Origin: an uncultured Verrucomicrobia subdivision 3 bacterium
Lineage (GTDB): Bacteria > Verrucomicrobiota > Verrucomicrobiia > Limisphaerales > UBA11358
NCBI GenBank assembly: GCA_903944085.1
Contig: CAJAQO010000120.1
Coordinates: 1 to 56,621, forward strand
DNA length: 56,621 bases
Reading direction: 5' to 3'
Shown here: positions 52,594 through 55,923 of the stretch, piece after piece
Layout: each line of letters opens with the position of its first letter
Position numbering within the stretch: position 1 is the first letter of the stretch
Translations under genes and position numbers: made by a program
The notes under the pieces: generated by a model
What the model saw: the letters and a program-made list of their open reading frames with translations, nothing else
Told to the model about the DNA's origin: nothing
The model's database searches: none

Positions 52594-52765
52594 GAATTCA
52601 AATACGCTGAAGGCGTAACGGAAATTAGCCCGGTGTTGGCCGATGCAATCGGACTACGCCGGGAAAACGTCCCGCAAAATAATTCCTTCTCCGCATCGGA
52701 TGGGGAGAAGGTGGCCGCAGGCCGGATGAGATGAACCGCGAACCACGCCAAACACGCGAACACGG
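52594..52765. repeat. Left inverted repeat of the methylase unit
   Basis: About 172 bp whose reverse complement recurs at 55751-55923. It opens GAATTCAAATACGCTGAAGG and continues identically for ~37 bp to AAATTAGCC. After a variable ~33-bp hairpin it matches again across AATAATTCCTTCTCCGCATC, TGGGGAGAAGGTGGCC and GGCCGGATGAG. Confidence 0.88.
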
Positions 52766-52862
52766 ATTGACGCTGCCAATTTTTCGGCGCAAACTCGCCG
52801 CTGTCCGAAAATAAAATCAACGACCAAATTATTTAATTAACAATTTTGCGTAGCTACGGCTA

Positions 52863-52983
52863 CGGGCTGACCCGAAAACCGCGAATTTTCAAGCCCGTGA
52901 AAGATCCGACCGAGCGCGCCCAAATGGGCGCGGCTTGGCGCGCTTCTTTCACAGGCGCTTCGCGGTGCCTCGGGTCAGGGCGT
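52863..52983. repeat. Imperfect inverted repeat before the methylase gene
   Basis: GGGCTGACCCGAAAACCGCG on the left pairs with the complement of CGCGGTGCCTCGGGTCAGGG on the right. The middle pairs GTGAAAGA with TCTTTCAC, and GAGCGCGCC with GGCGCGCTT. The ~120-bp hairpin ends 72 bp before the methylase ATG. It could be a transcript hairpin or the remnant of a second repeat. Confidence 0.7.
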
Positions 52984-53055
52984 GACGAGTCCGCGCCTCT
53001 TCTTTTTTGATTTCCCGTCGTCGTGGTTGCGTCAAACGCAACTGCTTATGACAAC

Positions 53056-55740
53056 ATGAATGAGGAACTGCTGCAACGCGGGTATTTTGCCAACGGAAAA
53101 TTAAAGGGCGCACCATACGGAAAATTTGAGAAATTTGATCTTGGCGGAACGAATATCGCCGAGTTGGAATCTGTTGGTCTCATTTCAAATGTTCAATCCA
53201 GCATCAAATTTCCTTTCAAACTTTATGCCCCGCCGAAACCGTTATTAGTTAAACCGGACGGTGTTTTCTGCTCACGCGCAAGTGGAAAAATTGAAGTGGT
53301 GGCAAACAAGGAAAATAAAAAACCTACCGCGCTGAATTCGGATGAAAAGAAGCAAAAAGCATTCGAGCAAGGCCTATATGCTGGTGCTTTGCTTGGCGCG
53401 CGTTTTGCAATCGTGACAGACGAAACGAATTTTTTCTACGTTGATGTTGCAGCGTCGCTCAAAAAACAAAGCATTGTTTTGCTTGGTGACAGGCTGACGT
53501 TAAATCCGGGGCTGCTCGAAGATATTTTGCGGCCTGACAGAGGTGCATCACTTGATCCTGGGCCGTTGGCGGAAAAAGTATGGCAGGCAATCTGGCACGC
53601 GACCAAAGAAGAACCCAAAGCATGTTTGCTGACGTTCGTGGAGATTTTTGTATTGAAGTTTCTCTCGGACAATCTGTCGGATTCAGTTCTAGCAAAAAGT
53701 TTTTCGTTCTACGAGTTGTGCGACACAGATCAAACCGCCTTCAGAACGAAGCATGGTAAAACTCAAATCGAATACTACGTTCAAGTCATCCGTCCTGAAA
53801 TCAAGCGGCTGTTTCCCGACAAGACAACAGTTGCGAATCAGGCCATTCTTGATCTCGTGGGTTTAGCCACAGTTGTTTCGCCAACATCCGTCATCAACGG
53901 CTTTGCGTTTTTACGATCAGGGCATCAAACCAGCCTCGAAACATTCAACCGCACGTTCGTAGAAATTCTTGGTTACTTCAAAGAGTTTGGCCCGCTGTCT
54001 AACATAGACCCGGAATTCAAGATGCGGCTGTATGAAACATTCCTGAAAAAATCCGGCAGGCAGCAAAAGCTTGGGCAATTTTTTACCCCAAGAAACGTCG
54101 TTAAGGCGATTATTCGGATGGCTCAACTGCCCAAGCTCAAAGATGGTGACTTGGTGCTCGACCCTGCGGCTGGCGTTGGGGGTTTTATTCTTGAGCCGTT
54201 AATCTGCGGTGATACCGGACTAACAGATAACATTTCATTTTTTCGCGGCGCACCAAAGCAAAAAATTAGATTGGTCGGCCTGGATGTTGATTCTGTGATG
54301 CACATTCTTGCCAAGGCCAACACACTGCTACATTTGGCGGAGTTTGTCCGCGATCCATCTGTCACCGTTGACGCGCTGAATAAATTGATGGCCGAGATGT
54401 TTTTGCTGCTCAATACCAACGAGCTGCTTGGAACGCTGGAATACCCGGTAAAAGCCGAGGTGTCGGTGATCATGACAAATCCCCCGTATGTCACCCAAGG
54501 TTCGCGCATCTACAAAGAAGAAATTTCAAAAATCAAAGGGCTGCGAAATGAGGCCGATTTGAAAGATTATTATGATCGGTGCGGACTGGGCTTGGAATCT
54601 CTCTTCTTGCGCTACGTCTCTGGCGCGCTCAAGGCCGGCGGCCGCGCATTCGTCATCGTTCCTTACGGGATGCTTACGCGAAGCGAAAACACAATGAAGG
54701 AAAAGATTCTTGGTGAGTGCAACTTGCTGGCTTCAATCGCGCTTCCTCGAAACACCTTTTTTAACACCGCCCAAAAAACCTACGTTTTGGCACTTGAAAA
54801 ACGCCACACTGCGACCGACCCACGGCCAGATGTTTTTTGCGCTGTTGGTTCTAGTGTCGGCGAGTCGCTAGACGCAAGGCGCGTTATTACTCAAGACGAC
54901 AACACGCTTCAAGAAATCGCTGATGCTTTTGTCGAATGGGACAGTGGCAAGAAAATCCCCGCGAAAATTTCCAAACGAATAAAAATCGTTAAGGGCGGGA
55001 ATTTTGATTCGGTTGAGCGTTGGGATGTTCTGCGGTTTTGGGATGAAGATGAACAGGTTGCCATCGGCGAGCGTGATGGAGCGATTGATACGACCGAATA
55101 CATTTCTGAAATACGAACAGAGCTTCAAGAGTTGCTTACGGAGTTGGCAACCGTCGAGACTAATCTTAAAATGCTTACACAAGGAGCATCCTTCACACTT
55201 GCATTGAATGACGAGAAGTTTTTCAGAATACGGCGTGGCCGGCGTGTGACACGCAAAATGTGTGATCTCAATCCGGGAGATATTCCGGTTTATTCAGGGT
55301 CAAAATTTAAGAGCCGACCGCTAGGAATGATTTCGGAAAAATTTGCCAAAGAACACTTCTTAAAAATTGAAAACAGTGTCTCAACCGATAAACCGATTAT
55401 CACAATCAACGCTAACGGGGCTGTTGGTTTTTGTTTTGTTCGACGGGACAAGTGCATTATTCACGACGATGTAATGATAGTGGAATTGGTCTCATCCGAA
55501 CTCGATTTTGATTTCGTTGAAGGTGCTTTACGCCGGGCTATTGTCGCTGGAAATTTCGAATATGAAGCGAAACTTTACAACCGAGTAAAAGATTTAGAAA
55601 TTGAAGTGCCCGCAACAGACTCGAAACAGCCCGATTTGGAAAGACAGATTTCAATAGCGAAAACACAAAAGCATTTAGAAGCTGTATCGCAGCGGGTGGC
55701 AGAAGTGGGTAAGTATGCCAACAAGGCTCGGCTTAAATAG
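53056..55740 (+). CDS. Solitary N6-adenine methylase with C-terminal specificity domain
   Basis: This 894-residue protein starts at the ATG giving MNEELLQRGYF; a GTG 33 bp upstream is possible. The N-terminal ~180 residues resemble a nuclease-like domain (LVKPDGVFCSRASGKIEVVA), but where E/D-x-K is expected it reads VVANKENKK. A helical region precedes the methylase core: motif I LDPAAGVGGF (Asp near residue 369) and motif IV TNPPY (Asn near residue 475). The C-terminal ~180 residues look like one HsdS target-recognition half (RRVTRKMCDLNPGDIPVYSG, then FEYEAKLYNRVKDLEIEVP) and a helical spacer. It methylates adenine in a sequence-specific manner. No separate restriction gene is seen nearby. 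Confidence 0.82.
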   Translation: MNEELLQRGYFANGKLKGAPYGKFEKFDLGGTNIAELESVGLISNVQSSIKFPFKLYAPPKPLLVKPDGVFCSRASGKIEVVANKENKKPTALNSDEKKQKAFEQGLYAGALLGARFAIVTDETNFFYVDVAASLKKQSIVLLGDRLTLNPGLLEDILRPDRGASLDPGPLAEKVWQAIWHATKEEPKACLLTFVEIFVLKFLSDNLSDSVLAKSFSFYELCDTDQTAFRTKHGKTQIEYYVQVIRPEIKRLFPDKTTVANQAILDLVGLATVVSPTSVINGFAFLRSGHQTSLETFNRTFVEILGYFKEFGPLSNIDPEFKMRLYETFLKKSGRQQKLGQFFTPRNVVKAIIRMAQLPKLKDGDLVLDPAAGVGGFILEPLICGDTGLTDNISFFRGAPKQKIRLVGLDVDSVMHILAKANTLLHLAEFVRDPSVTVDALNKLMAEMFLLLNTNELLGTLEYPVKAEVSVIMTNPPYVTQGSRIYKEEISKIKGLRNEADLKDYYDRCGLGLESLFLRYVSGALKAGGRAFVIVPYGMLTRSENTMKEKILGECNLLASIALPRNTFFNTAQKTYVLALEKRHTATDPRPDVFCAVGSSVGESLDARRVITQDDNTLQEIADAFVEWDSGKKIPAKISKRIKIVKGGNFDSVERWDVLRFWDEDEQVAIGERDGAIDTTEYISEIRTELQELLTELATVETNLKMLTQGASFTLALNDEKFFRIRRGRRVTRKMCDLNPGDIPVYSGSKFKSRPLGMISEKFAKEHFLKIENSVSTDKPIITINANGAVGFCFVRRDKCIIHDDVMIVELVSSELDFDFVEGALRRAIVAGNFEYEAKLYNRVKDLEIEVPATDSKQPDLERQISIAKTQKHLEAVSQRVAEVGKYANKARLK

Positions 55741-55750
55741 CTATCGGAAG

Positions 55751-55923
55751 CCGTTCGCGTATTTCGCGGTTCAAGAACACACCTCATCCGGCCTCCGGCC
55801 ACCTTCTCCCCATAGGATGCGGAGAAGGAATTATTTTGTGGGACGATTTCCTAGGGTAGGTGCTTGCGCACGGCGCACCAACCCTAGGCTAATTTCCGTT
55901 ACGCCTTCAGCGTATTTGAATTC
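55751..55923. repeat. Right inverted repeat of the methylase unit
   Basis: This is the mirror of the left repeat, ending in GCGTATTTGAATTC. Its central hairpin (CCTAGGGTAGG ... CCAACCCTAGG at about 55850-55889) differs from the left repeat. It has the same core motif as the palindromic element at 1940-2176. Confidence 0.88.

Follow-up and report, generated by a model that had tools for sequence, protein, structure and literature searches.

The 56,621-nt stretch analysed here (contig CAJAQO010000120.1 of assembly GCA_903944085.1, from an uncultured Verrucomicrobia subdivision 3 bacterium; hereafter the window) contains, at positions 52593-55924, a DNA methyltransferase gene enclosed by two long inverted repeats, or arms. 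Comparison with related genomes leads us to conclude that this unit is probably a non-autonomous mobile cassette with the structured inverted arms as its ends, most likely moved by a Y1 transposase acting in trans. A preliminary description, made from the sequence alone, had already suggested a repeat-driven mobile unit carrying a modification gene and resembling a miniature inverted-repeat transposable element (MITE); the comparisons below support that suggestion. G000 denotes the window's own genome, other labels give a relative's genome and contig (as in G001:C17), and B1, B2 and H3 are types of inner hairpin. The unit is made up as follows.

52593-52741, plus strand: left arm, with a small hairpin (ACGCTGAAGGCGT), a long variable hairpin and an inner hairpin (CCTTCTCC...GGAGAAGG, GGCCGCAGGCC) of type B1
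52734-52765, plus strand: degenerate dispersed repeat (ACCGCGAACCACG...) adjoining the inner end of the left arm, outside the conserved arm
52862-52985, plus strand: strong leader hairpin separating the left arm from the cargo gene (RNA folding energy -73.5 kcal/mol, z -5.95)
53056-55740, plus strand: cargo gene, encoding an N6-adenine DNA methyltransferase with a fused type I-like specificity domain (894 aa if started at the ATG at 53056; alternative GTG start at 53023)
55776-55924, minus strand: right arm, inverted, with the identical three-hairpin layout and another central hairpin

Compared within the window, the whole arms are 81% identical over 174 columns (E ~1e-36). From outside to inside each consists of the ACGCTGAAGGCGT hairpin, the block GGAAATTAGCC, the long hairpin with its variable stem, the block CGTCCCRCAAAATAATTC and the inner hairpin. 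The variable hairpin is thereby flanked by two near-identical blocks, as the preliminary description had stated: the outer inverted blocks (52593-52639 and 55878-55924, 47 nt) share 94% identity and the inner ones (52654-52733 and 55780-55859, 80 nt) share 89%. The arm length of about 170 bp given there needs correction, in that the inverted arms are real but the conserved arm measures about 145 nt, with a separate degenerate repeat beyond it. Each arm has its own hairpin, which rules out a fresh duplication of one window arm. Many arms are flanked on their outer side by either a degenerate dispersed repeat (ACACGAATT...) or a hairpin that resembles a terminator and has a T-run. The tetranucleotide CTAC, which reads GTAG on the opposite strand and is mostly conserved, sits within the long hairpin, not ahead of the palindrome. 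The arm stems vary across arms by compensatory changes. Specifically, across 29 arms, pairing was kept in 95.5% of cells in the two outer hairpins, and 59 cells were changed on both sides. Shuffling gave 21.6 such cells, and sliding the structure gave few; pairs with a double change (7 versus 5.6) and pair types (15 versus 14.6) did not clearly exceed shuffles. An outer-arm covariance model that we built from 29 arms matched the window arms at 52600-52685 (101.7 bits) and 55828-55917 (102 bits).

The cargo protein matches the Pfam families N6_Mtase (3.7e-28) and Methylase_S (1.3e-4) and, in PADLOC, MTase_I and mad2, the match to the MAD2 methyltransferase being partial. Its gene is the sole long open reading frame between the arms, and no transposase was found there. 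Its GC content of 0.463 (third positions 0.478) lies below that of the window (0.560), with none of 180 sliding windows of equal size lower. The single methylase-specificity gene, its AT-richness and the missing transposase had thus all been correctly recognised beforehand. A type IIG restriction enzyme would have a nuclease domain in the same chain. A degenerate nuclease motif suspected by eye in the cargo N-terminus found no backing: for the 261-aa N-terminal piece, Pfam contained no match to nucleases at E<1, and nothing in the PDB matched convincingly. A single-sequence structure model of the cargo was discarded (mean predicted local distance difference test score, pLDDT, 31.9).

The arms are members of a dispersed family. 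A search of the window's own genome with the 172-nt arm gave 21 matches, both window arms counted, and the first 147 nt of the arm were matched in 40 of 59 genomes searched (own included), many matches covering the inner hairpin only. The block that had been noticed near 26078 is genuinely related to the inner arm: positions 26067-26116 match arm positions 119-168 at 84%. The arm motif was also present on named contigs, which came mostly from Limisphaerales and other Verrucomicrobia, with one Acidobacteria metagenome-assembled genome. The covariance model gave 142 matches in 9 genomes, own included (E<=1e-4; 40 of them in G000), and 77 matches in 25 of 40 further genomes of the same genus (E<=1e-8). 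Six GC-rich 58-nt model matches had an identical 34.1 bits, with several others close (G000:C315, C24, C223, C320, C330) and some at contig ends; these in G000 are perhaps a separate, recently spread repeat.

The orientation of neighbouring arms follows a rule. Using 218 of the 219 model matches (49 genus genomes) and neighbours at most 8 kb apart, we found both arms pointing outward ('+-') in 39 of 47 pairs, the other 8 being arranged otherwise. By spacing, the outward orientation accounted for 22 of 23 pairs at up to 200 nt, 4 of 7 at 200-1000 nt and 13 of 17 at 1-8 kb, and it was present in all 10 pairs in which both arms scored at least 70 bits.

The preliminary description had raised the possibility of arms around other genes, and relatives do contain such units, mostly with restriction or defence enzymes. 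The 13 long '+-' pairs include nine with restriction/defence enzymes or close copies of them (G001:C10 and G000:C202 being classed by DNA homology, without a family scan), two weak or ambiguous cases and two with neither.

Window cassette: methyltransferase with specificity domain (MTase-S)
G015:C63: GmrSD plus HNH
G001:C9: AAA_11/AAA_12 helicase with MTES_1575 nuclease
G028:C48 and G026:C356: Mrr_cat_2/ResIII helicases
G001:C10: same cargo as G026, by DNA
G013:C37: ResIII plus N6_N4_Mtase
G031:C64: McrBC-type
G000:C202: shortened relative of the G026 cargo; right arm weak
G014:C125: weak methyltransferase match only
G035:C1: T5orf172/DUF4041, ambiguous
G060:C128: no family found
G009:C29: no credible gene (without a family scan); weak arms

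Cargo GC was below flank GC in 11 of the 13, the exceptions being G000:C202 and G009:C29. In a small, hand-picked control of 10 outer-neighbour proteins, 8 had a Pfam family and none was of restriction/defence type above the cut-off (one APS kinase also touched Zeta_toxin, below it); of the two without a Pfam family, one was M19B, which is a candidate for defence in PADLOC. One more outer neighbour, the eleventh, lies beside G035:C1 and belongs to the RhuM family. Arms on one side only accompany type ISP enzymes (G009:C21 and G010:C164) and an incomplete 899-aa protein with a partial PADLOC match to Dsr1 (G010:C154, L105 1-2697; E 3.3e-9). An extra bracket on a named contig (L225 808-3129, FW301) encloses three proteins, none with a Pfam family, and is a candidate for an unknown defence system. 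One of these L225 proteins resembles, by eye, a protein bracketed in G035:C353.

Cargo and arms also recur together at different loci. G001:C17 holds an internally deleted window cassette in which the counterpart of window positions 52595-52937 (72%) is joined to that of 55528-55929 (87% at the nucleotide level), with 97% amino-acid identity over the last 71 cargo residues. When the whole window was compared with 5.5 kb around this copy, the only other matches were two repeat tracts (28 and 50 nt) and cross-matches of one arm with the other. The cargo protein was present in 2 of 293 genomes of the order, own included, the second being this remnant. Likewise, G026:C356 and G001:C10 have a helicase cassette in common (75-89% identity from arm to arm) and no flank homology was found between them; G000:C202 holds a shortened copy.

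Sites without a cassette were found as well. The G001:C10 cassette is flanked by a conserved gene and msrA, and in G060, G023, G012, G032 and G013 the matches to these genes lie 60-133 bp apart, leaving no room for a cassette. Its left arm directly follows a conserved terminator-like ...GTCCGCCGTTTTT; G013 has the same hairpin and T-run, with the msrA end some 20 nt on, and in G060 the spacer has diverged. The T-run of a terminator-like hairpin also precedes arms at G028 (right), G013 (right) and G010:C255. The G001:C9 cassette lies between prfC and a gene that we take to encode an ABC-F protein, together with an APS kinase gene, and in G023 prfC adjoins the ABC-F gene. The empty site anticipated in the preliminary description therefore exists for two sister cassettes, absent between the same neighbours in relatives, but the window's own site is not clean. 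Target duplications, also anticipated, were not seen by eye at the junctions, the one comparable site (G001:C10, with none at its arms) being uncertain by about 20 nt. Short units of G000, used as presence/absence markers against five relatives, gave no usable empty site. Together, these comparisons of sequence support mobility as a unit.

Two side observations concern these loci. At G001:C10, a putative toxin-antitoxin-like pair was noticed by eye at L147 7135-7815, between copies of the msrA 3' end; this stretch looks like an insertion with a long target duplication. At G001:C9, the APS kinase gene (L059 6104-6900) lies between the cassette and the ABC-F gene and appears to have duplicated the upstream region and start of the latter.

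Near the aldo/keto reductase gene to the right of the window cassette, three species have three cargos: the methyltransferase in G000, a helicase in G026 and the Dsr1-matching protein in G010. The right arm there is orthologous between G000 and G026 (93% identity in a 795-nt stretch that takes in the outer part of the arm), and the cargos of these two differ; in G010 the arm lies about 90 bp further off, and G023 has no cassette beside this gene. We compared arm identities among 13 cassettes, a set that included G001:C17 and FW301 in place of G000:C202 and G009:C29. Mean identity was 0.800 within pairs and 0.691 between cassettes, and none of 10,000 re-pairings reached the observed mean; the partner arm was the best match for only 8 of 26 arms. 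The arms thus appear to travel as pairs. As to inner-hairpin types, both arms share B1 (CCTTCTCC...GGATGAGG) in the window, G015, G014 and G060, B2 (CTCCCTCTCCTCGCCGAACGAGG...) in G001:C9, G028, G013, G035:C1 and G031, and H3 (CCACCCTGAAGGGGTGG) in G026 and G001:C10. G001:C9 and G028:C48 have similar arms (0.92 left to left, 0.90 right to right) around different cargos, which fits cargo exchange.

A candidate engine is found in the same genomes. IS200-like Y1 transposases (Pfam Y1_Tnp) lie between arms of the same layout at G010:C235, G028:C200, G009:C90 and G001:C9, in units of ~0.7-0.85 kb whose arms have diverged from those of the cassettes. An arm-type match lay within 700 nt of 12 of 20 Y1 genes scoring at least 75 bits (9 genomes), the other 8 having none in the lists used. 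The cassettes of G060, G031 and G014 look intermediate between the two kinds of arm. Because Y1 transposases occur between diverged arms of this layout, mobilisation in trans would be the likeliest route for the cassettes.

The arms also resemble a listed RNA family. In the window at 52400-56100 no Rfam family exceeded its gathering score, but Acido-Lenti-1 (RF01687; gathering score 37) matches the arms on the opposite strand, with 19-21 bits in the window and 28-31 in several other cassettes. At E<=0.01 it had 207 matches in 9 genomes (G000, G001, G009, G010, G013, G015, G023, G026, G028). In a subset of 123, pairs with a gap of at most 200 nt were inverted as '-+' in 31 of 32 cases, with lengths of ~170-220 bp, as against 2 of 9 wider pairs in this orientation, and some matches adjoin Y1 transposase genes. 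Only 13 of the 123 overlapped a cassette-model match, 11 of them on the opposite strand, and this small overlap implies a set that is related to the arms and mostly separate from them. Acido-Lenti-1 is listed as an RNA of Acidobacteria and Lentisphaerae (Weinberg 2010, PMC2864571), whereas the related copies in the present genomes behave like element ends, which suggests that in these genomes the family may represent an element end and not a small RNA.

We propose that the smallest members of the arm family would be MITE/REPIN-like units of ~190-240 bp (arm, short spacer, inverted arm), and that larger ones would include a Y1 gene. A Y1 (HUH) transposase, supplied in trans, would recognise the arm hairpins on single-stranded DNA, excise the DNA between the arms and insert it without target duplication, at least sometimes right after the T-run of an intrinsic terminator. 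Different one- or two-gene restriction or defence systems would come to be carried between the arms, presumably for defence against phages, and a locus already holding an arm could change its cargo. Both the varied defence cargo and such changes at arm-bearing loci would arise because the arms are generic.

Several observations weigh against this proposal. None of 30 Y1 loci in 9 genomes had cassette-type arms, and arms beside Y1 genes reached at most 41 bits on the cassette model, compared with at least 70 bits for 17 of 26 long-pair arms, so the partner enzyme of the window arms is one that we infer and have not found. The orientation count (39 of 47) is not fully independent, several arms of the model having first been found as pairs; 4 of 17 long neighbouring pairs (1-8 kb) are not inverted outward; and only 20 of 50 arm matches of at least 70 bits sit in pairs with both arms at that score, the other 30, some at contig ends, lying outside strong pairs. 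G001:C17 departs from the matching of inner hairpins, its left arm being B2-like and its right arm B1. At G001:C10 the terminator or spacer differs between species in the comparison with empty sites, and about 0.6 kb lies beyond the cassette, enclosed by a repeated msrA end whose copies are 84% identical over 63 nt, indicating that the site changed more than once and that the insertion point is uncertain by about 20 nt. The window cassette itself does not sit at a clean insertion site, since its left side also differs by the M19A/M19B gene pair and a truncated neighbouring gene. The main rival would replace the transposase altogether: the arms would be dispersed, portable homology through which defence genes were swapped between loci and species by homologous recombination after DNA uptake, with no transposase on the long units, and recombination between dispersed arms could move cargo in this way. 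The orthologous right arm beside differing cargos at the aldo/keto reductase site, the similar arms of G001:C9 and G028:C48 and the lack of a Y1 gene with cassette-type arms all favour it. Against it stand the G001:C10 site, at which the relatives G060 and G013 lack any arm between the corresponding neighbours, and the arms of the same layout that bracket Y1 genes and form short inverted units. We consider this explanation unlikely as a replacement for transposition, though arm recombination perhaps acts in addition.

Two further explanations dispense with mobile ends. The arms could serve as functional RNAs or terminators, insulating the gene and inherited together with it, in line with their strong folding, compensatory changes and weak Acido-Lenti-1 match. 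Arms and cargo nevertheless occur together at different loci, and the Acido-Lenti-1 matches themselves form inverted pairs of ~190 bp in the manner of element ends, which makes this account very improbable. Least probable of all is coincidence, in which two unrelated intergenic repeats were inserted on either side of a horizontally acquired gene. The window arms are, to be sure, only 81% identical with hairpins of their own, and the repeat family is dispersed; the orientation bias and the second copy of the window cassette with both arms at G001:C17 rule such a chance out, and defence genes are bracketed repeatedly. Arms were not always found alone, nor the gene always without arms, the outcomes that the preliminary description had named as contrary to its proposal, though many arms are solitary.

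The kinds of element concerned are known (restriction-modification genes in inverted repeats, TIRtrons, REPINs); the cargo-changing form appears to be new. Furuta, Abe and Kobayashi are said to have described in 2010, in NAR 38:2428, restriction-modification genes flanked by long inverted repeats with short target duplications. The window unit is similar in that a gene of restriction-modification type, without a transposase of its own, is bracketed and apparently inserted as a unit, and in that unit and repeats recur elsewhere (here internally deleted, at G001:C17). It differs in that no target duplication was seen and the ends are multi-hairpin arms of a genus-wide family that surrounds many unrelated defence genes. 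Elements of the IS200/IS605 family have end hairpins, a T-rich flank and no target duplication, and the present units resemble them in the Y1 enzyme of related units, the end hairpins, the T-rich flank at some ends and the absence of a visible target duplication; unlike them, the ends here are inverted repeats and the window unit has no transposase. Terminal inverted repeats, no internal transposase and dispersed genome copies are also features of MITEs and other non-autonomous DNA elements; a target-site duplication is typical of DDE-type MITEs.

Movement of restriction-modification genes linked to insertion sequences (PMC3031569) and Tn7-like transposons with defence cargo (PMC8649781) have also been described. 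TIRtrons are IS200-like tyrosine transposase genes (TIRYT) flanked by long, partly self-complementary inverted repeats, which are also dispersed as singles, dimers and clusters (PMC3733652). That description fits the ~0.7-0.85 kb Y1 units, whose arms share the three-hairpin layout of the window arms and have diverged in sequence, but the window unit lacks a Y1 transposase and carries a methyltransferase, and the word 'cargo' is absent from the text of PMC3733652. REPINs are inverted pairs of hairpin repeats, with proposed mobilisation in trans by RAYTs (tyrosine transposases associated with REPs, repetitive extragenic palindromes), and according to a speculation of the authors a REPIN that acquired useful DNA would be at an advantage (PMC3116915); TnpAREP is treated in PMC8266576. 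The present units are REPIN-like as inverted pairs of hairpin repeats, but REPINs are miniature, whereas these units measure 1.3-6 kb and bear genes, with arms not shown to be GTAG-tagged REPs. We found no account of REPIN- or TIRtron-type ends around defence genes in open-licence papers, which does not prove that none exists.

What carries single defence genes from place to place, when no vehicle is evident, is an open question, and hairpin-armed cassettes offer one whose ends can be used to search for it. From this cassette family one would expect further, new defence genes among the cargo, and some of the cargos described above belong to no known family. The benefit of RAYT-like transposases to their host is debated, and if our reading is true they would gain a concrete role. 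Tentatively, we suggest that these genomes may possess a pool of interchangeable one- and two-gene immunity cassettes with universal hairpin ends, served in trans by RAYT-related Y1 'housekeeping' transposases, a possible integron-like supply of defence genes made from REPIN/TIRtron parts; the orphan motif Acido-Lenti-1 would then form the end hairpin of the whole element superfamily and not an RNA gene, a reinterpretation that is testable.

The following features lie outside the cassette.

50664-50736, plus strand: 3' gene fragment matching the end of the G023 gene that adjoins the aldo/keto reductase gene
50841-52565, plus strand: two genes matching PDC-M19A/M19B, a candidate defence system in PADLOC; they lie immediately upstream of the cassette and have no bracketing arms
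56005-56621, plus strand, running off the window: aldo/keto reductase gene (Pfam Aldo_ket_red, 1.2e-50)

The G023 gene adjoining the aldo/keto reductase gene is presumably AraC-like. Relatives of the M19A/M19B region were seen at G069:C33 and G008:C14. Near the solitary arm fragment at 26067, the open reading frame at 26450-27406 resembles what we take to be an IS4-type transposase. Within the cassette, the hairpin at 52862-52985 is possibly a regulatory leader; its first part is retained in the deleted G001 copy (homology window 52595-52937).

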